Origin: Verrucomicrobiales bacterium
Lineage (GTDB): Bacteria; Verrucomicrobiota; Verrucomicrobiia; Limisphaerales; UBA9464
DNA length: 32,491 nucleotides
Reading direction: 5' to 3'
Assembly (NCBI GenBank): GCA_005793375.1
Contig: SXSK01000231.1
Location: forward strand, 1-32,491
Below the pieces are notes generated by a model. That model had not been told where the DNA came from. It ran no database searches and saw nothing but the letters and a program-made list of their open reading frames with translations. Position numbers and translations under genes: made by a program. Within the stretch, counting starts at the first letter, position 1, and every line of letters starts with the position of its first letter. Below are positions 672-31,760 of this stretch, piece by piece.

Positions 672-875
672 CTAAGGTTCGGCGGTTTTCCCCCGTCCGC
701 TTTCTGAGGCGGATCCATCCTTCACCCACTGGTCAACCTCCGAAGCCAGAAACTTCCAAAGGCGCCCGAGCTTGTGCGCGGGCATGCTCTTCCTGGTGAT
801 CCATTTGTAAATGGTGTCCGGATTGACCCCGAGATGCGCTGCGATTTCGTCCACTGACAGCCAGCGTTCAGCCAT
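672..875 (-). CDS. Excisionase-family helix-turn-helix DNA-binding protein
   Basis: A 67-residue protein made almost entirely of a MerR-like/excisionase winged helix-turn-helix (HTH_17 type). The typical pattern is visible: a start followed by WLSVDEIAAHLGV (helix 1), then DTIYKWITRK (recognition helix), then the wing with MPAHKLGRLWKF and a final helix EVDQWVK. Such proteins act either as recombination directionality factors or as small regulators at the head of operons. Here it is first in a unit with the micro-ORF and truncated DUF499 and far from the integrase at 10776-11813, so a regulatory role is more likely than excision. The ATG at 875 is the only good start; the C-terminal tail is charged and probably disordered. 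Confidence 0.8.
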   Translation of the reverse strand: MAERWLSVDEIAAHLGVNPDTIYKWITRKSMPAHKLGRLWKFLASEVDQWVKDGSASESGRGKTAEP

Positions 876-1068: not shown

Positions 1069-1809
1069 TCAATCCCGGCCGGGTGGCTTTGCAGCCTGCC
1101 GGAGCAGGTCCATCACCTGCCGAAGCAGACCGTTCGCACGGGTGAGATGGGGAACTGGCGCGCCGGGCGGGGTAGTGTTCAGGAGGTCGGTGACCGCGTC
1201 GAAGGCTTCGACGAGCCGTTTCTGCTCCGGGGCGCGGAGGCGGACAGTGTCCCATCGGTCCATTTCGCCGGAATCGAGCAGCGCACTGCGGATTGTGGCT
1301 TCAGGAACGAACCCCTGCATCCAGGCGGTGAAGACTTCGGTGACCCACGCGTTGTGCTGGGGATCGAGGACATCCTTCAGCCGCCAAGGGTTGATGGCGT
1401 GGTTCCCGTTGAAGATGGACCACACGAAGCGACGCAGATGCTGGCCGCTGTGGGTGTCGGGATTGTCGCGAATGCTGGTGGCCAAGTTTTGCAGAGCCTC
1501 CTCGGCTGTGCGTTTCTGGGCGGCGCGTTGATCGAGTTCGGATTGAGAAAGGAACGAGGGCGCGGCGAGGACGTTGGTCAGCAGGTAGCAGATGGCTTCG
1601 GGCTCAGCGTCTTTGAGTTCCGTCCGCCACGCCTTGGTGCCGTCGCCGGGAATCGCAACGAGTGCGTTGCCGTCGAGTCGGACAGTGGCGCGTCCGTTGG
1701 TGAACGACGCAGGCGCGGTGCGTTCAAAGCCTTGGGCTTCAAGGAATTCCTTCAGCCACGGTTGTTCGGTGAGCGGTGGTCGGGCGATTTCTGGAGCCAT
1801 CCGTCCCAT
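1069..1809 (-). CDS. Hypothetical protein of the mobile element (246 aa)
   Basis: I do not recognise a named family. The protein is soluble, with no signal peptide or membrane segment. The first 60 residues alternate short hydrophobic strands with charged turns (EFLEAQGFER, TVRLDGNALVAI). The middle is helical, with QRAAQKRTAEEALQNLA, and a conspicuous aromatic patch around HLRRFVWSIFNGNH. Start choice is between M1 (1809) and M4 (1800); neither has a strong ribosome site. It lies between the relaxase and the HTH gene on the same strand, so it is probably accessory to the element, but nothing in the sequence gives its task. Confidence 0.65.
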   Translation of the reverse strand: MGRMAPEIARPPLTEQPWLKEFLEAQGFERTAPASFTNGRATVRLDGNALVAIPGDGTKAWRTELKDAEPEAICYLLTNVLAAPSFLSQSELDQRAAQKRTAEEALQNLATSIRDNPDTHSGQHLRRFVWSIFNGNHAINPWRLKDVLDPQHNAWVTEVFTAWMQGFVPEATIRSALLDSGEMDRWDTVRLRAPEQKRLVEAFDAVTDLLNTTPPGAPVPHLTRANGLLRQVMDLLRQAAKPPGRD

Positions 1810-2047: not shown

Positions 2048-5000
2048 TCAGTGCGAATGACTGTGGGAGTGAGAGTGGGACTGGGAGTTCGACTGCGCCG
2101 GGTTGGATTGCACCGGGGCCTTTGCGGCTTGCCGACGTTTCTCCTCCTCCTCCTCACGGCGTCGGCGCTCTTCCTCCCTGCGGCGCTCCGCATCGTCCTG
2201 AAGGCGTTCGTCACTGAAGGGACTCGCCCCCACTCGACCCTTGCCGGTCCAGTAGTGCTTCGTCTCCGTCGCCTGAACCGTCGGGTTGCCACGCCAAGGC
2301 TGGTCGCGCTCAGTATCGCGGGTATCGCCGCCGGTGGCGGCAGCCTTCTCCCGCTCCGCAGCGCTTCGGTCCTTCGTCGCCAGTGCGGCTTCATGGAGTC
2401 GCTTTGCCTCCTCGCTTTGGGCCGTGGCGGCACGGGCTTGATTTCGGAGATCCTCCTCAACCCGTTCGTCTTTGAAGGGGCTACGTCCCAACACGCCTTC
2501 CCCGGTCCAGTAAGATTTGGTGTCCGAGACGGGGTCGAAGGGGGAGCGGCTCACAATCGGTTTCGCGGCGGCAGACGGAGCCGAGTCGCCTTCGCTGGAG
2601 CCTTGTTTCACCTGCTTGGCCGCCCGCTTCGCCTTCCGCTCTTCCGCCGCGCGATTACGTTCCTCCTCGGCCTGCTGTCGTTCAACCGCACGCTCGGTGC
2701 GGCCCTGTTGCTCGCCGCGGTTTCGCTCCTCTTCGAAGGGGCTGGGTCCCCGCGCACCTTCACCCGTCCAGACGGTTTCCGTATCCGAGACCCGGTGGAA
2801 CGGCGAGCGACTGACAATGGTTTTCCCGGCGGCAGATTGATCAGGCCCGCCCGATTCGGAATTCTCCGTCGCCTGTTTGGCCGCCCGCCGCTCCTTCCGC
2901 TCCTCCGCCGCGCGATTGCGGTCCTCGTTGGCTTCCCATCGTTCAGTCGCACGCTCGGTGCGGTTCTGTTCCTCGCGCTGATTCCGCTGCTCTTCAAAGT
3001 GTCGAGGCTCCGGCCTGTCCGTCGGATTCCAGTAAGAGGGAGCCGAGGGCTTGGTGCCGGAGGGCCGGTCTGCCCGCGTCTCGGCTTCCGATCTACCCTG
3101 GGATGACTCCTCCGAACGGCTTTGAGATTTCGCGTCCGCCTTCACACCTGGGTTGGGCGCATCCTTGTTCCAAGCCTCGTCGCGCTTCGCATCGTGCGCG
3201 TCCATTTCTTGGATGCCACGCCGGTGGTTCAACTCGCGCTGCCCTTCCACCGTAAAACATTCGGCCAAGTCCGGTCCCGTGTAGACGCGCACCGGGCAAT
3301 CCGCCGCCCGGGCTTTGATGGCCTCAAACTCAAGCTCCGGCCCTTTGCCCTCGAAGAGGATGAACGCCTTCTTTGGATTGGTAGTTGTCGCGTCGGCATG
3401 GGCCACGGCGTAGGCTAGCCGGATGTCAGGAGCCTCCTTGGCTTGGAACTCCACCTTCACCCCAGCATCCGTCCGGATGGTAATCCGATCACCCGCCACC
3501 TTGGTGACGGTTCCGAAGTCGCCGATGTTGATCTGGTCGAGATTCTTGATGTCGGGCCGGGTGTTGGAAGTGCGGAAGGTGACCCGGTCATGCTGATGCA
3601 ACGTTTCTTCGTGGACCTGGATCGAGCGCAGTCCGACGCGCCCTTGATTCCGACGTTGCTTCTGGATTTCCGCGTTGAGGCGTTCCGCTGCCGCGCGCGT
3701 TTGGCAGAGGACGAGGTTCCCTTCCGGGCGCGTCATTCCCCCGGCACGTTCCCAGTCGTCGAGGATTCCCCGCCAAGCATGACCATCGGACTTGCCGACG
3801 AGGACGCGTGGCTTCCGAAACTGGCGGAGGAAACGACGGCCGTCGTTGATGGACTGCTCCAGCTTTTCGAGCCGTTCATCCTTGATCCAGACCAGCCTCG
3901 CGCCGGTCTTGAAGGCGGTGACGATGGACTCCCGAATCTGCCGCAAGGCGGCGTGCTTCGCGTCCCGCAGGGGGATCGACAGTCGCCGCCGAATCTTGTG
4001 CGGGGCGAAGTCCGAGTCGACGGCGACCGCAGGAAGCTTGACGTAGTGGAATGGACTCCACCCAGGAGATCGTTGGAAAAGCCGGTTCGCTTGGAGGTCA
4101 ACATTGAACACCCGCAGCTCAATCGTGGTGAACGGATGGCGACGGTTTCTCCGGAGGGCTCCAATTTTGACGACGGCGAATTCGCTTCTCCGTTTGCGGG
4201 AGGCTCTCGCCGAGACCGGCTTGTAGCGCGGGGAATGTCTCTTCTGGCGCGCGCGCTCCTCTTTTTCCCGGCTCTCCCGCTCGGCTTTGTGCTTCGTCGC
4301 GGCCTCTTCCCATTTCTTCCGAAATTCCTCCGACCGCTTTTGGGACTCCTCCTTGTTCTTCGACTCCTTCTCGGTCCGGGCGCTGGCCTGGGCTTCGGTG
4401 AGCCGGTCGGGAAAGGGAGGGTCCTGCTTCTGGTTCGAGGTTGAGAGCTTGGTCTTCGACCTACCTAAAGCTTCGTAGGTGGCGGCCAACACCTGGCGCG
4501 CGGACAGACCGCTGGTCTGCATCGATTCGGCGACCGTCTGGAGGGTCTCGGCTTTGCTCGGTTTAATCGGCGAGGCGCGCAGGGCGGCTTCAATGTCGGC
4601 GGAAAGCGCCTTCATCTCGGTGGTCCAATTCGTCTGCTCCGCCTTCCGGGACTGCAACCCGACGACTCTACCGGGAGACCAACCCATTTCGGCCGCCGCG
4701 CTGGCCCAGGCGGCGAAAAGGGTCTCACGGGCGACGTGGGACTTCTTGGTGCGGGTCGCCAGCGCGGCCTTCTCCGCCATGACGGTGTCGTAGCCGCCAT
4801 GCTTCCGGCAGTAGTCGATGATCTGGGCACGTCGGGTGGAGAAGAACTCGATGGTGTCGCGATCCACCCCCTTGATTTCGAAGAACGCCCCGCTCTTCTC
4901 GACCGGGTAGGACAGTTCCTTTTGGAGCAGGTGGGCGAGCTGGCAGCGGTAGAGTGTCCCGAATGCCGTTTTCAGCTCGAACATCTGATCCGTCTTGAGG

Positions 5001-5545
5001 GCACCCCATCCGTCATTGGGCCGAAGCCCGAGGTTGAAGCAGACGGCGTGCGTGTGCAGCTGCGGGTCCTGGGCGCGGCTGGTTCCGTGTTGGAACAGGG
5101 CGAAACACAGGGAGGCGGTTTCCCTCCTCCACCCGCCGCTCCCCGACCGGGTGATCCCCGCGTGCTCCTCGACGATGGCCAGTGTTTTGCGAACCGCCTC
5201 GTCGTGGACCCGCTCGATCTGCTGGCGCATCGGTTCCGGGGCCAAGGCCCAGCAGACGCTGACCGACTTCGGCGGGGAGAAGGTCAGGTCCCAGCCGGGA
5301 ACCCGCTTGTGGTAGCCGTCCTTCTTCCCGGCGTTCTGAACCAAGGGTCGGGTGCCGTCGGGTGAGAACCCTTGAAACAGGTAGCGGAAAGTTTCCCCGG
5401 CTACTTCCCCGGAAAGACCCAAAGCTTTTGCTCCGTCGCCATGCCACTCGCCGGGAGGTTCACCCCCTTGGAGGTAGTAATGTTCGTGCGCCAATTCCAC
5501 GTAGTAGGCGGCACTGCGGATGGAGATTTTTTCCAGTGATAGCAT
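2048..5545 (-). CDS. MobF (TrwC-type) conjugative relaxase with degenerate helicase and C-terminal repeats
   Basis: Nicks oriT and pilots the transferred strand during conjugation. Numbering from the ATG at 5545 (1165 aa), both tyrosine pairs of TrwC are present (Y14-Y15 and Y23-Y24), as are WDLTFSPPKSVS with D86 and the metal-binding histidine triad (H153, H164, H166) in HGTSR..DPQLHTH. The N-terminal 300 residues are therefore an intact MobF relaxase. A Lys/Glu-rich linker follows. Residues about 600-760 resemble the C-terminal half of a RecD/TraI helicase (LVLCQTRAAAERLN, then GDFGTVT), but no Walker A is visible anywhere. Four 87-residue repeats and an (SH)5 tail finish the protein. An upstream in-frame ATG at 5578 adds 11 residues; I prefer 5545 because it matches the usual distance to the tyrosines. 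It may act as a relaxase without helicase activity. Confidence 0.9.
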   Translation of the reverse strand: MLSLEKISIRSAAYYVELAHEHYYLQGGEPPGEWHGDGAKALGLSGEVAGETFRYLFQGFSPDGTRPLVQNAGKKDGYHKRVPGWDLTFSPPKSVSVCWALAPEPMRQQIERVHDEAVRKTLAIVEEHAGITRSGSGGWRRETASLCFALFQHGTSRAQDPQLHTHAVCFNLGLRPNDGWGALKTDQMFELKTAFGTLYRCQLAHLLQKELSYPVEKSGAFFEIKGVDRDTIEFFSTRRAQIIDYCRKHGGYDTVMAEKAALATRTKKSHVARETLFAAWASAAAEMGWSPGRVVGLQSRKAEQTNWTTEMKALSADIEAALRASPIKPSKAETLQTVAESMQTSGLSARQVLAATYEALGRSKTKLSTSNQKQDPPFPDRLTEAQASARTEKESKNKEESQKRSEEFRKKWEEAATKHKAERESREKEERARQKRHSPRYKPVSARASRKRRSEFAVVKIGALRRNRRHPFTTIELRVFNVDLQANRLFQRSPGWSPFHYVKLPAVAVDSDFAPHKIRRRLSIPLRDAKHAALRQIRESIVTAFKTGARLVWIKDERLEKLEQSINDGRRFLRQFRKPRVLVGKSDGHAWRGILDDWERAGGMTRPEGNLVLCQTRAAAERLNAEIQKQRRNQGRVGLRSIQVHEETLHQHDRVTFRTSNTRPDIKNLDQINIGDFGTVTKVAGDRITIRTDAGVKVEFQAKEAPDIRLAYAVAHADATTTNPKKAFILFEGKGPELEFEAIKARAADCPVRVYTGPDLAECFTVEGQRELNHRRGIQEMDAHDAKRDEAWNKDAPNPGVKADAKSQSRSEESSQGRSEAETRADRPSGTKPSAPSYWNPTDRPEPRHFEEQRNQREEQNRTERATERWEANEDRNRAAEERKERRAAKQATENSESGGPDQSAAGKTIVSRSPFHRVSDTETVWTGEGARGPSPFEEERNRGEQQGRTERAVERQQAEEERNRAAEERKAKRAAKQVKQGSSEGDSAPSAAAKPIVSRSPFDPVSDTKSYWTGEGVLGRSPFKDERVEEDLRNQARAATAQSEEAKRLHEAALATKDRSAAEREKAAATGGDTRDTERDQPWRGNPTVQATETKHYWTGKGRVGASPFSDERLQDDAERRREEERRRREEEEEKRRQAAKAPVQSNPAQSNSQSHSHSHSHSH
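2051..3037 (-). repeat. Four tandem 87-codon repeats in the relaxase C-terminus
   Basis: Repeat units cover 3037-2777, 2776-2516, 2515-2258 and a partial 2257-2051. Each opens with a W-T-G-E/K-G-x-x-G-x-S-P-F-x-x-E/D-R motif (diverged in the first unit), continues into a charged Arg/Glu/Ala helix, and closes with SRSPF-x-x-V-S-D-T-x in units one and two. The first three units are 87, 87 and 86 residues. Units one and two are the most alike, which suggests duplication within the gene. Confidence 0.85.
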
Positions 5546-5644
5546 GCTCGGTTTGGCGGTGAAGTCGTGCCCCGCCATAACCAGCAGTCGCGGAAATCCC
5601 GGTTTTCGAACCCGGAAATCAGCGGGAAGACCGGGCAGGCCAGA

Positions 5645-5717
5645 GTTAACCTGTTAACCCGTTGATTGAGCGTGCTTTGGAAACGAGAATCGCGGCTTTG
5701 TTAACGTCGTTGTTAAC
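5645..5717. promoter_or_regulatory. Cluster of four GTTAAC palindromes upstream of the relaxase
   Basis: GTTAAC occurs at 5645, 5653, 5700 and 5712, in two pairs with start-to-start spacings of 8 and 12 bp. The stretch is more AT-rich than its surroundings and lies 70-170 bp upstream of the relaxase start. Paired short palindromes here would suit binding of a relaxase-operon repressor or an oriT accessory protein. No matching regulator can be assigned. Confidence 0.4.
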
Positions 5718-5762
5718 TCCAAAAGCAGCTCTGGCACTGCGGTTTGCATCGGTGGCTGTTGG

Positions 5763-5800
5763 CTGTGTAAACGCACCGACAGGTGCATCAGGTGTGCTGC
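5763..5800 (-). other. Candidate origin of transfer (oriT) core
   Basis: On the minus strand a short hairpin, GCACC-TGTC-GGTGC (5786-5773), is followed by GTTTACACAGCC. From memory, the R388 nic-proximal site recognised by TrwC has a GCACCG-AAA-GGTGC hairpin followed by GTATTGTCT and the nick. The stem bases are the same, the orientation matches the relaxase gene, and the site lies about 230 bp upstream of that gene. The bases around a nick differ, so the nick position is unknown. The remainder of 5579-6084 holds no credible gene. Confidence 0.4.
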
Positions 5801-6084: not shown

Positions 6085-6303
6085 CTACTTCGGGCGCCTC
6101 CGTTTGTGAACCCGGTCGTAAAGACCGCACCGGAATCGGTCCAGCTCCTGGAGGTGGCAGAAGATGTGCGGCGTCTCGACGTCGCTCGGGTTCTCCACGT
6201 AGTCCCTCAACTCACCACGCCAGTAATGGTCCAGGATTTTGTCGATGACCACGATTGCCTCGGCTTCGCTGACGGTCGGTGGTGATTTCTGCGGTGTTCT
6301 CAT
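6085..6303 (-). CDS. Small hypothetical protein (72 aa), second gene of the acidic-protein operon
   Basis: The start at 6303 is chosen because its ATG overlaps the stop of the preceding gene (CAATGA), a classical coupling arrangement; the longer reading to 6363 would overlap that gene's coding sequence. The protein begins MRTPQKSPP, has an acidic helix (SEAEAIVVIDKILDHYW) and ends in a very basic tail (HKRRRPK). I recognise no family. A terminator follows directly. Being coupled to the acidic 197-aa protein suggests the two act together, possibly as partners with opposite charge at the C-terminus; this is inference. Confidence 0.65.
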   Translation of the reverse strand: MRTPQKSPPTVSEAEAIVVIDKILDHYWRGELRDYVENPSDVETPHIFCHLQELDRFRCGLYDRVHKRRRPK

Positions 6304-6893
6304 TGAGCCCCCACGATGAGTGCCTTCTGGCCGCCGTTGAGCTCGATTTCCTCCACGGACCACGAGGACGAATCCAGGAAAACATCGGTGTCAAAGATCA
6401 ACCCGTCGCAAGGCGTCGCCTCCCACATCGCATAGGCTTCGGGATAGTAGAGCTCGAAGAGCTCGTAGGCGGCTCCCCTCCGGAGGTCGTAGAAACTGGT
6501 CCCCTCGAAGAGGTGGATGTTCTGGTCCTCCACCTGCTCGCCGGTGAGCTGGTTCAGGTAGGTTCCGAGCGTGTTCACCGCGTGGTGAATCCGGAGGAAG
6601 TTGAACGTCGAATCGTCCCCCAATTCCTGAAGCACCTTGTCGAGGTCGAGCAGCTCTGACCCCGTCACGGCCGACCGGTCCTTGAACAGCAGGGACACTC
6701 CGGCGTTGTCGCCCGATGGCCAGAACTCCGCTTCCCCGTGCGCGTCGTGATCCCAGTTCACCACCTCGTCGCCGGTCAGAACCCGGTCGATGGCGGAACT
6801 CTGCCGAAAGTTGAAGCCCTCGAAGGTCCCCAGGTCGAACTGAAGCGCGTATCCTCCTTTCTCCGGGGTGTTGGTTGTCTCGGTCGTTTCCAT
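6300..6893 (-). CDS. Acidic hypothetical protein (197 aa)
   Basis: The ORF is open to 7190, but the ATG at 6893 is preceded by GGAG at a good distance, and sequence further upstream is low-complexity, so METTETTN is taken as the start. The protein has about 36 Asp/Glu against about 10 Arg/Lys, spread throughout, with several aromatic residues and no signal or membrane segment. No family is recognised. Strongly acidic small proteins on mobile elements are often antirestriction or anti-defence DNA mimics (ArdA-like in principle), but there is no visible sequence similarity to those. It is translationally coupled to the 72-aa gene and its mRNA must pass the hairpin at 6929-7003. Confidence 0.65.
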   Translation of the reverse strand: METTETTNTPEKGGYALQFDLGTFEGFNFRQSSAIDRVLTGDEVVNWDHDAHGEAEFWPSGDNAGVSLLFKDRSAVTGSELLDLDKVLQELGDDSTFNFLRIHHAVNTLGTYLNQLTGEQVEDQNIHLFEGTSFYDLRRGAAYELFELYYPEAYAMWEATPCDGLIFDTDVFLDSSSWSVEEIELNGGQKALIVGAQ

Positions 6894-6928: not shown

Positions 6929-7003
6929 AAAAAAGGCTTTCCCGGGGAGAGGGGGGCGTGTTTTCACCTACGTGCTGAAACACCCCCCCTCTCCTTGGGA
7001 AAG
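6929..7003 (-). terminator. Long hairpin with T-tract just upstream of the acidic-protein gene (attenuator-like)
   Basis: On the minus strand the arms run from CTTTCCC (7003-6997) to GGGAAAG (6943-6937), with G-rich/C-rich inner arms and a second small stem CAC..GTG at the tip, then TTTTTT at 6934-6929. This is a 67-nt imperfect palindrome with a terminator-type T-run. Only 35 nt separate the T-run from the ATG at 6893, too short for a promoter plus leader, so transcripts for the operon probably originate upstream and read through it. Confidence 0.7.
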
Positions 7004-10775: not shown

Positions 10776-11813
10776 TTACGCGAGCCGCACCTCCGGCATG
10801 GGCAGGATCTCGGCGCTGTTGGCGAGCTTCCGCTCGTAGGATTCCAGCGTGGGGATCACCACCTGCGCATTCTTGGCGTAGGCGCGATGGACCGCCTTGC
10901 TGTTGTGGCCGAGGGCCTCCTGCGCAAAGCGCTCCGGATAGCCGCACGTCTTTGCCCGCTCCGCCCACGCGTAGCGGTAACTATGGAGCGTCACGCCCTT
11001 GATGTTCAACCGGCGGCAGCACCGCGCGAATTCCGTGGCCCGGTGCGCTTCCCGCATCTTCTGGAGCTTGGGAAAAAGCGGTCCCGCCTGCGGCCGTGAG
11101 CGCAGGAGTTCCTCCAGCTCCTCACCGAACCGGATGACCGAGGTCGTCCCCGTCTTCTGACGGCGGAAACCCACCACCTTGTTCTGCCAGTCGATGTCCT
11201 CGGCGCAGAGGGACGCCACGTCCGATTGCGCCCCCCCGAGGAGCCAGCAGAACCCGTAGAACGCCCGACGCTCCAGGTTCAGCTCGGCGGCGACGATGGC
11301 CTGGTGCTCCTTCCAGGTGATCGCGCGCTTGGACTTGAAGTGAACCTTGGGCCACTGCTTCTTCGGCAGCACCGGCCAGGGCAGCCAGCTCATGTCGAGG
11401 GCGAAGTTGTGGATGCGCCGCAGGAACACGTTCGTGGCCACGGTGCCCGCCTCCAGGGCGCGCAGGAAGTCGGTGGATTTCGTCTCCAGGATCGGCAGGT
11501 TGCGGATGGAATCGAACGCCGGGTCCTGCATCGCCCGCTTATTGCGCACGAAAGTCGGGCCGGTCTTGGTCCGCGTCATCTCGTCCATCGGCATCTGCCA
11601 GGTGCGCTTGGCGATTTCCGGGTCGGTGGCGGACAGATACGTCCGCGCGATGTGCAGGTTCAGGACGGGTTGGCGGAAGGCCTCGTTGCGGGCATGGAGG
11701 AGCGTGAGGGCTTCGGCCTTCTCCTTGGTGCGGAGGCTGACCTGTTTGCCGTTCTCCGTGTCCTGGCTGTAGAACACGCCTCCGCGACGGAAGAGGATGA
11801 ATCGAGTTTTCAT
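10776..11813 (-). CDS. Tyrosine-type recombinase/integrase with Gln in place of the first catalytic Arg
   Basis: 345 residues. N-terminal about 165 residues form the SAM-like core-binding part; the catalytic domain holds K220 (RQKTG), HxxR at H277-R280 (TLHSYR), H303 (ALGHNS) and the nucleophile Y312 (HRAYAK). At the place of Arg I (normally G-x-R-x-x-E) the sequence is GGAQSDVA, giving Q196. I recall this GGAQSD pattern in a family of Verrucomicrobiota integrases, so it is probably a family trait rather than decay. It lies 188 bp from the encoded 3' CCA of tRNA-Cys and points away from it, the usual arrangement for an element that integrates in a tRNA 3' end. Likely role: integration and excision of the left element. 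Confidence 0.85.
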   Translation of the reverse strand: MKTRFILFRRGGVFYSQDTENGKQVSLRTKEKAEALTLLHARNEAFRQPVLNLHIARTYLSATDPEIAKRTWQMPMDEMTRTKTGPTFVRNKRAMQDPAFDSIRNLPILETKSTDFLRALEAGTVATNVFLRRIHNFALDMSWLPWPVLPKKQWPKVHFKSKRAITWKEHQAIVAAELNLERRAFYGFCWLLGGAQSDVASLCAEDIDWQNKVVGFRRQKTGTTSVIRFGEELEELLRSRPQAGPLFPKLQKMREAHRATEFARCCRRLNIKGVTLHSYRYAWAERAKTCGYPERFAQEALGHNSKAVHRAYAKNAQVVIPTLESYERKLANSAEILPMPEVRLA

Positions 11814-12001: not shown

Positions 12002-12076
12002 TGGAGGCGAGGGTCGGAATCGAACCGACGAATGCAGCTTTTGCAGAGCCGTGCCTTACCACTTGGCTACCCCGCC
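12002..12076 (-). tRNA. tRNA-Cys (GCA)
   Basis: On the minus strand the 5' arm GGCGGGG (12076-12070) pairs with CCTCGCC (12012-12006); discriminator T at 12005 and encoded CCA at 12004-12002. The anticodon loop CTGCAAA, within stem CGGCT/AGCTG, gives GCA. The T arm has GGTTCGATTCC. Length 71 nt before the discriminator, normal for tRNA-Cys. Its 3' end faces the integrase and is the probable attachment site of the left element. Confidence 0.95.
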
Positions 12077-30401: not shown

Positions 30402-30489
30402 TGGTGCCGACGGCGGGGGTCGAACCCGCACGGCCATTACTGGCCAGGGGATTTTAAGTCCCCTGTGTCTGCCATTCCACCACGTCGGC
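30402..30489 (-). tRNA. tRNA-Leu (TAA)
   Basis: On the minus strand 5' GCCGACG (30489-30483) pairs with CGTCGGC (30412-30406); discriminator A at 30405 and encoded CCA at 30404-30402. Anticodon loop CTTAAAA within stem GGGGA/TCCCC gives TAA. A long variable arm of class II type (GGCCAGTAATGGCC) and T arm GGGTTCGACCCC confirm tRNA-Leu. The 5' end faces the right-hand integrase, which is less usual than the 3' end. Confidence 0.95.
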
Positions 30490-30569: not shown

Positions 30570-31760
30570 ATGAAACGCGCTGAAACGCGGTGCAACCCTG
30601 AACTGGTCGGTGATGATGCCAAAAAGTCATCTTACGTGGATGCACCATACGAACAGGTCTATGACGGCCGCAAGCAACGTGTGCGAGGACTTTGGAAGCG
30701 GGGGCCCATGTTCTACGGCCGGTTCCAAGCCACCGACCAAGCTGGACGGAAACGGGATGTGTTTCGGTCGCTGGAAGGAGTGGAGACGGTACCGGCCGCC
30801 AAAGCCACATTGCAACGGCTCCGGGAGGAGTCCAACCACCGAACCATCCCAGTGGCGGGTCGATGCCCCACCTTCGCGGAGTACGCAGACCGCTACCTTG
30901 CCGAGGTTTCACCAACCAAACGATTGGCGACTGCTCGCAAGGAAAGAACTCACCTGGAGTGGTGGAAAGAGCGACTGGGATCGCTCACCCTCCGACAAAT
31001 TCACCGAACCCATGTGAATTCGGGGATCGGTGATCTCACGAAAAGCAAACTCAGCAATCGGACCGCCAATCTCTACACCATCTCCCTGCGCGGAGTTTTG
31101 AAGCGAGCCGTGGAAGAGGGGCTTATTCGGGATCTTCCAACACACGGCCTGAAGCCGTTGAAAGTCGCCAGCAAAAAACGCGAACTCATCGACATGATGA
31201 CTTTCACCAAGCTCTTGGAAGCCTCCAGTGCTGCAACGAAAAACTCTGTCCAGTTTAAGGACTACTACCGCTTCTTGCTTTTCTCAGGAGCACGCGAAGC
31301 CGAAGCTCTCTGCATCCGATGGGCGGACGTGGATTTTACAGGGAAGCAAGTCACGATCGGATGGGATGGAGGGACCAAGAACCATGAGGCGCGACGCGTG
31401 GACTTCAATCCTCCGCTCGAATCCCTTTTGTCTGAAATGTATGCACGCAGAGCCCCAGATTCACAATGGCTTTTCCCGAGTCCCCAGCGAGGGGACCAGG
31501 ATGGGCACGCCAAGACGTTTCGGGAAAGCCTGAGGCAATCATGTGATGCCGCTGGGGTTCCTCGCTTTGGGTTTCACGATGCAAGACACGCATTCATTTC
31601 CCAGTGTGTCATGGCTGGAATTGACTACATGACGATTGCCAAGTGGGTGGGCCACAAAGACGGAGGCGTGTTAGTTGGCAAAGTTTACGGACACATCGCT
31701 AATGACCATCGACGAAACATGGCCTCACGATTTGCTTATCCGCTAGAAGCATCGGCTTAA
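30570..31760 (+). CDS. Tyrosine-type recombinase/integrase (complete catalytic set)
   Basis: 396 residues. The catalytic domain has R242 (FSGAREAEAL), the beta-hairpin K270 (GGTKNHEARR), H336 and R339 (FHDARH), H362 (WVGHKDGG) and the nucleophile Y373 (KVYGHIAND). An N-terminal arm-binding-like part (LWKRGPMFYGRFQATDQAGR) precedes the core-binding part starting near TFAEYADRYL. All residues needed for strand exchange are present, so the gene should be functional. No ribosome site is seen before the ATG at 30570 because the 12-bp repeat lies there; the next in-frame ATG is residue 47, which would delete part of the arm domain. Likely role: integration and excision of the right element. Confidence 0.88.
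   Translation: MKRAETRCNPELVGDDAKKSSYVDAPYEQVYDGRKQRVRGLWKRGPMFYGRFQATDQAGRKRDVFRSLEGVETVPAAKATLQRLREESNHRTIPVAGRCPTFAEYADRYLAEVSPTKRLATARKERTHLEWWKERLGSLTLRQIHRTHVNSGIGDLTKSKLSNRTANLYTISLRGVLKRAVEEGLIRDLPTHGLKPLKVASKKRELIDMMTFTKLLEASSAATKNSVQFKDYYRFLLFSGAREAEALCIRWADVDFTGKQVTIGWDGGTKNHEARRVDFNPPLESLLSEMYARRAPDSQWLFPSPQRGDQDGHAKTFRESLRQSCDAAGVPRFGFHDARHAFISQCVMAGIDYMTIAKWVGHKDGGVLVGKVYGHIANDHRRNMASRFAYPLEASA

Follow-up and report, generated by a model that had tools for sequence, protein, structure and literature searches.

The closest described counterparts of the locus analysed here are the nic sites of the MOBF plasmids R388 and F. The R388 site, recognised by the relaxase TrwC (PDB 1OMH), reads GCACC-GAAA-GGTGC-GTATTGTCT/A, where the slash marks the nick, and lies on the strand opposite trwABC. 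In F, which is served by TraI, the stem is followed by GTGGGGTGT/G, again on the strand opposite the tra genes. Randomisation of the R388 site showed that the proximal arm of the hairpin and the nine bases following it are essential, that the loop is free and that a purine must follow the nick (PMC4176350). Among MOBF plasmids, GTGT at positions 22-25 is the rule, R388 having GTCT (PMC4176350). Two contacts of TrwC matter here: Met1 touches the nic DNA and Lys262 discriminates the base at position 24 (PMC4176350). As for gene order, the relaxase gene normally lies in the lagging region (PMC11541004). No described oriT for Verrucomicrobiota was found in the literature consulted.

The window, i.e. 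the whole 32,491-nt stretch of DNA analysed here, contains a hairpin located about 227 nt from the likely start of a MobF relaxase gene (Table 1). Read on the + strand, 5773-5786 is GCACCGACAGGTGC (GCACC-GACA-GGTGC), followed by ATCAGGTGT/G; on the minus strand, the same hairpin reads GCACC-TGTC-GGTGC and is followed by GTTTACACAGCC, as the preliminary description reported. Its statement that the stem bases are those of R388 (GCACC/GGTGC, around a 4-nt loop) is likewise correct. We regard it as highly likely, judging from the sequence comparisons below, that this is the nic hairpin of an oriT served by the adjacent MobF relaxase, with a predicted + strand cut at 5795/5796.

Table 1 Features of the predicted oriT, the relaxase gene and the surrounding element
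Feature	Position	Strand	Remark
Conserved 246-aa protein downstream of mobF	1069..1809	-	L034 has a 79% identical protein at the corresponding position
MobF relaxase (1165 aa, counted from the invariant MLS)	2048..5545	-	Intact relaxase domain with its Tyr pairs and three His; Walker A lacking
Five GTTWAC/GTWAAC sites, partly inverted repeats	5645..5772 (5645, 5653, 5700, 5712, 5767)	.	Putative protein-binding sites
Distal arm of the nic hairpin, GCACC	5773..5777	+	Equals R388 nt 3-7
Hairpin loop GACA	5778..5781	+	3-5 nt in relatives; loop bases free in R388 (PMC4176350)
Proximal arm GGTGC, the part read by relaxases	5782..5786	+	Kept in relatives although not a selection criterion
Recognition stretch ATCAGGTGT, nine single-stranded bases including the GTGT U-turn	5787..5795	+	Arranged like R388 nt 17-25
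Purine G 3' of the predicted nick; presumed first T-strand base	5796	+	R388 requires a purine here (PMC4176350)
Acidic protein of 197 aa with a pI of 4.1, leading side of the predicted nick	6300..6893	-	Conserved beside oriT
Inverted repeat with 20-bp arms, 44 nt before the acidic-gene start	6937..7003	.	Kept in L075 and L078; shorter form in L077
Tyrosine recombinase (integrase), adjoins tRNA-Cys	10776..11813	-	47% identical homologue 2 kb from the same oriT type in L210
tRNA-Cys, probable integration site	12002..12076	-	Suggested by its position beside the integrase

The + strand presents a stem, nine single-stranded bases and a nick before a purine, which is the layout of R388 and F, with the geometry of PMC4176350. 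T18, GTGT at 22-25 and a purine at 26 are all provided by ATCAGGTGT/G, and of the published rules for the R388 site only one is broken: position 17 is A instead of the G that R388, F and most MOBF sites have. Stem, 4-nt loop, spacing, purine after the nick and polarity are thus shared with R388. The differences from R388 are the U-turn, which is GTGT and not GTCT, position 21, which is G and not T, and the lack of trwA and trwB between oriT and relaxase. The narrow R388-type sequence GTATTGTCT/A is absent from both strands; only the stem agrees. The R388-like nick sequence initially proposed therefore gives way to the common MOBF GTGT type (PMC4176350), as found in F, which shares with the window the nine bases between stem and nick, GGTGT/G and a nicked strand opposite the tra genes. 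F differs in its stem (GCAAAAAC-TTG-TTTTTGC), in the active helicase domain of TraI and in being self-transmissible. The site is a further case of an already known kind of MOBF oriT.

Since 5-bp GC-rich stems are frequent in the window (58, or 1.8 per kb), the hairpin by itself is weak proof. GCACC-N3..5-GGTGC occurs a single time in the window, the 26-nt neighbourhood of the hairpin has one copy in its own genome, and GCACC-N3..4-GGTGC-N4..6-GGTGTG gives one match in that genome and is present in 6 of 388 genomes from the phylum. What argues that the hairpin is more than chance is its recurrence before the four closest relaxase homologues, together with compensatory changes of the outer pair in L033 (G-C to A-T) and in L076. 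Conservation upstream of close homologues was a check set in advance by the preliminary description. It was looked for among relatives drawn from 194 genomes of the family and order, and found: L003, L033, L034 and L035 have the hairpin at -203 to -217 from the start, the four nearest relaxases being 79, 47, 45 and 45% identical over their aligned parts. Behind the stem, the antisense-strand sequence is kept in near relatives as ATTGGGTGT/G, ATAAAGTGT/C and CTCAGGTGT/G, L033 having a C and no purine after the nick. Where relaxases are 37-44% identical, the same strand carries ATCCGGTGT/G, CTCCGGTGT/G or ATCAGGTGT/G at -328 to -410.

Species genomes scanned with a relaxase alignment yielded 80 named MobF loci, some of which had already been in the first set. 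In the 1 kb preceding the relaxase match, NTYNGGTGTG was found 32 times antisense (in 32 loci) versus never in sense; the first kilobase downstream gave 1 antisense and 0 sense. When a hairpin of at least 4 bp was required and the distance extended to 3 kb, the upstream counts were 32 antisense versus 2 sense, with 3 and 6 downstream. Because this motif had been derived from the first set, a motif-free strand test was added, in which hairpins were chosen by stem alone ([N]CACC-N3..5-GGTG[N], outer bases paired). Of the 18 hairpins obtained, 14 have.T...GTGT adjoining the stem on the antisense side, compared with 0 on the sense side. Sites chosen by the nine bases, in turn, display the proximal arm, which was not selected: G, G, T, G and C are present at 35, 41, 39, 43 and 32 of 44 sites. 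Their own upstream sequences also pair better than shuffled ones (4.18 versus 3.46 pairs, the maximum of 1000 shuffles being 3.84). Distal arms tolerate mismatch, as in R388, some relatives pairing 3 of 5 bases or fewer.

Of the 80 loci, 48 have no such site in the first kilobase upstream; most of these are Proteobacteria, with some Planctomycetota among them. In several Proteobacteria, oriT is expected to lie beyond trwA-trwB, and one Methylophilaceae locus (L134) has GCACC-GCAG-GGTGC-GTGGGGTGT/G at -2114. The signature was seen in Verrucomicrobiota, Planctomycetota, Armatimonadota and Cyanobacteria, a list that is approximate because names of metagenome bins may be wrong.

The preliminary description had placed an R388-like nick on the minus strand, where the hairpin is followed by GTTTACACA and the nick would fall before GCC, leaving the relaxase gene in the leading region. 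The stem is identical to that of R388 in this direction too, G at position 17 with T next to it agrees with R388, and the flank is kept in L003 and L033. But only 4 of the 9 bases agree with GTATTGTCT, the U-turn bases (ACAC...) misfit both GTCT and GTGT, and beyond the two or three nearest relatives the flank is not conserved, homologues having AGTTAACGC, GAAAGCCTC, TAACAAAAG and others. On this side,.T...GTGT accompanies 0 of the 18 stem-selected hairpins, against 14 on the other. The polarity would also be opposite to that of R388 and F. Since both plasmids are nicked on the strand opposite the relaxase or tra operon, and since a relaxase gene in the lagging region, which enters last, is obtained only with a + strand nick, we reject the minus-strand reading, which appears very improbable, and assign the predicted nick to the + strand.

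The GTTTAC in the minus-strand flank belongs to a cluster of five GTTWAC/GTWAAC sites that separates the hairpin from the relaxase gene. The window has 14 such sites in all, and the five at 5645-5772 compare with a shuffle mean of 0.14. The cluster is kept in L003, L033-L035 and L076 as GTTWACA...TGTWAAC. An accessory or regulatory protein probably binds to these sites. In many distant relatives, a small gene for a protein of about 100 aa separates oriT and relaxase, and two of these proteins weakly match models of the mobilization protein NikA or of ribbon-helix-helix proteins; the window's clade has no small gene at that place. Its position in the 5' region of the gene, beside this cluster, could make the hairpin a regulatory element of the relaxase gene (terminator, attenuator or operator) instead of a nic site. 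Against such a role stand the weak stem (-6.6 kcal/mol as ssDNA with flank), which is followed by no T run, the conservation of bases flanking the stem in the antisense strand, not accounted for by a hairpin in a transcript, and the relatives in which the site is 300-600 nt off, often with a small gene in between. We give this regulatory interpretation scarcely any credence and retain the nic hairpin.

A recognition repeat of another HUH enzyme (of the REP/RAYT, IS200/IS605 or IS91 type), present here by chance, was also considered. It would find a parallel in G132, a genome with eight dispersed copies of the full signature (L190-L195, L216, L217) and no MobF in the stretches examined. These copies read GTTTACAA...TGTAAAC about 60 nt 5' of TTTGTTTGCACC-GNA-GGTGC-ATCCGGTGT/G, two of them with 1-2 mismatches. 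They lie in ordinary gene surroundings and their 3' sides form families (C211/C1133, C214/C504 and C817/C1216). However, the window's site has only one copy in its own genome, and sites of its kind are tied to an upstream antisense position in 80 independently found MobF loci. A chance repeat is thus hardly to be believed for the window, where we keep to a MobF oriT; the G132 sites themselves are candidates for stand-alone oriTs or for repeats of another enzyme. The stem-less short nic pattern GTGYMTCNGGTGTG, run over the 194 genomes, returned mostly background, with similar control counts, and still recovered MobF-adjacent sites in G000, G001, G003, G009, G044 and G161. Matches in G076, G163 and G070, in ordinary gene surroundings and without a hairpin, were taken as chance.

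The relaxase open frame begins at 5578. All 13 relatives whose alignment includes the start share the M-L-S at 5545 without change, and Met1 of TrwC contacts nic DNA, which makes ATG 5545 the likely start. The protein matches Pfam TrwC (PF08751) at 2.6e-78 and NCBIfam MobF (NF041492) at 4e-70, over the cut-off, and is the sole TrwC-family gene found in its genome. In the PDB, the best match of the relaxase domain is DNA-bound TrwC of R388 (1.7e-46; 38-39% identical), followed by TraI proteins. Y14/Y15, Y23/Y24, H153, H164 and H166 are invariant among relatives. Mapping by alignment, the residues contacting T23 are retained (Met1 and the equivalents of Ser89 and Gln159). The residue aligned to TrwC Lys262 is Ala here and Lys in 0 of 15 relatives, which would fit G24 in place of C24.

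No Walker A motif, as carried by the C-terminal helicase of TrwC and TraI though not by all members of the family, was found in the window relaxase or in L074, L075, L077 and L078, so that MOBF membership rests on the relaxase domain. L076 has only a look-alike, GFSPDGKT, within the relaxase domain, and BLASTP of the middle of the window relaxase against the TrwC helicase gave no meaningful match. TrwC and most other relatives possess the motif, most of the more distant ones as GxAGTGKT near residue 450-500. From this distribution, the helicase motor seems to have been lost in the near clade. The C-terminal part of the window relaxase (2048-3200, minus strand) contains three WTG.G..G.SPF..ER repeats within a charged low-complexity region, and ends in SHSHSHSHSH.

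The predicted oriT and the relaxase gene belong to an island whose end is formed by an integrase gene adjoining tRNA-Cys, and the integrative element in a Verrucomicrobiota genome that had been proposed is upheld. The L210 integrase homologue, being 2 kb from a site of the same kind, ties this type of integrase to this type of oriT. A search of the window for a further copy of the tRNA-Cys 3' end was negative, and the element ends were not found, the contig ending at 1. Neither a TrwB-type coupling protein (PF10412) nor a TraG/VirB4-type P-loop ATPase (PF19044) was detected in the genome, whose assembly is 94% complete but fragmented, so that the absence of a T4SS could be an assembly gap. With neither of them found, mobilizable is the likelier state, and the element is probably not self-transmissible. 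An integrase by a tRNA gene, an own relaxase and oriT, and no secretion genes found are features shared with IMEs, from which the window element differs in that its ends were not located. A small HTH_17 protein (681-875, minus strand; 3.8e-15) probably acts in the element as its excisionase or as a regulator.

On the leading side of the predicted nick, the acidic protein shows 74-81% identity between relatives; the relaxases of these relatives share only about 52%. Of 194 genomes, 11 have its gene and most of these also a MobF gene; in G174 its distance to oriT is 550 nt and that to MobF 11 kb. In L208 (4956-6362 and 17154), MobF on the one hand and oriT with the acidic gene on the other are 11 kb apart, with transposase-like genes between. 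L077 and L078 have paralogue pairs of the protein. No match was obtained in PHROGs, Pfam or NCBIfam, and a fold search with its model (pLDDT 71.5) gave no PDB match below E 0.1. The gene is on the strand for which the T-strand serves as template. An early-expressed leading-region gene fits these observations, and the protein is a candidate anti-defence or establishment protein. The inverted repeat at 6937-7003 is possibly a single-strand (Frpo-like) promoter or a terminator.

The site, its conservation and strand bias, the gene layout and the catalytic residues form the observed basis for the following model. After excision, the element would borrow the secretion channel of a helper. The relaxase would read the proximal arm GGTGC and the following ATCAGGTGT on the + strand and fold the GTGT bases into a U-turn, upon which one catalytic tyrosine would cut between 5795 and 5796, leaving the relaxase attached to the 5' end at G5796. 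As the relaxase has no Walker A helicase motif, a recruited helicase of the host or helper probably unwinds the strand. The acidic-gene side would head the departing T-strand, with the relaxase gene at its tail. In the recipient, the hairpin would re-form and the second tyrosine rejoin the ends.

A + strand nick changes the order of entry: the acidic-gene side leads and the relaxase comes last. More generally, the signature GGTGC-[AG]T[CT]NGGTGT/G preceded by a weak hairpin and located antisense to a MobF gene, 200-800 nt upstream of it, predicts nick strand and position in several phyla without a conjugation model, and offers a route to their transfer origins, leading regions and relaxase-less passengers. 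A wider scenario, which we put forward tentatively and consider rather doubtful as a whole, is that of a Verrucomicrobiota MobF clade that has lost its helicase motor, has kept a canonical GTGT nic and must borrow a helicase, and whose leading region carries a conserved acidic protein after a long hairpin that may be a single-strand promoter; the eight relaxase-less signatures seen in at least one related genome, G132, could then be hitchers served by such MobF elements.

Two further observations concern the margins of the window. Near the contig end, 27-569 (minus strand) encodes the broken-off N-terminal part of a DUF499 anti-phage-associated protein, covering residues 1-142 of 1025 in NF042962. 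At the other side, a second tyrosine recombinase stands directly beside a tRNA-Leu gene (30402-30489 and 30570-31760), where another integrated element may begin.
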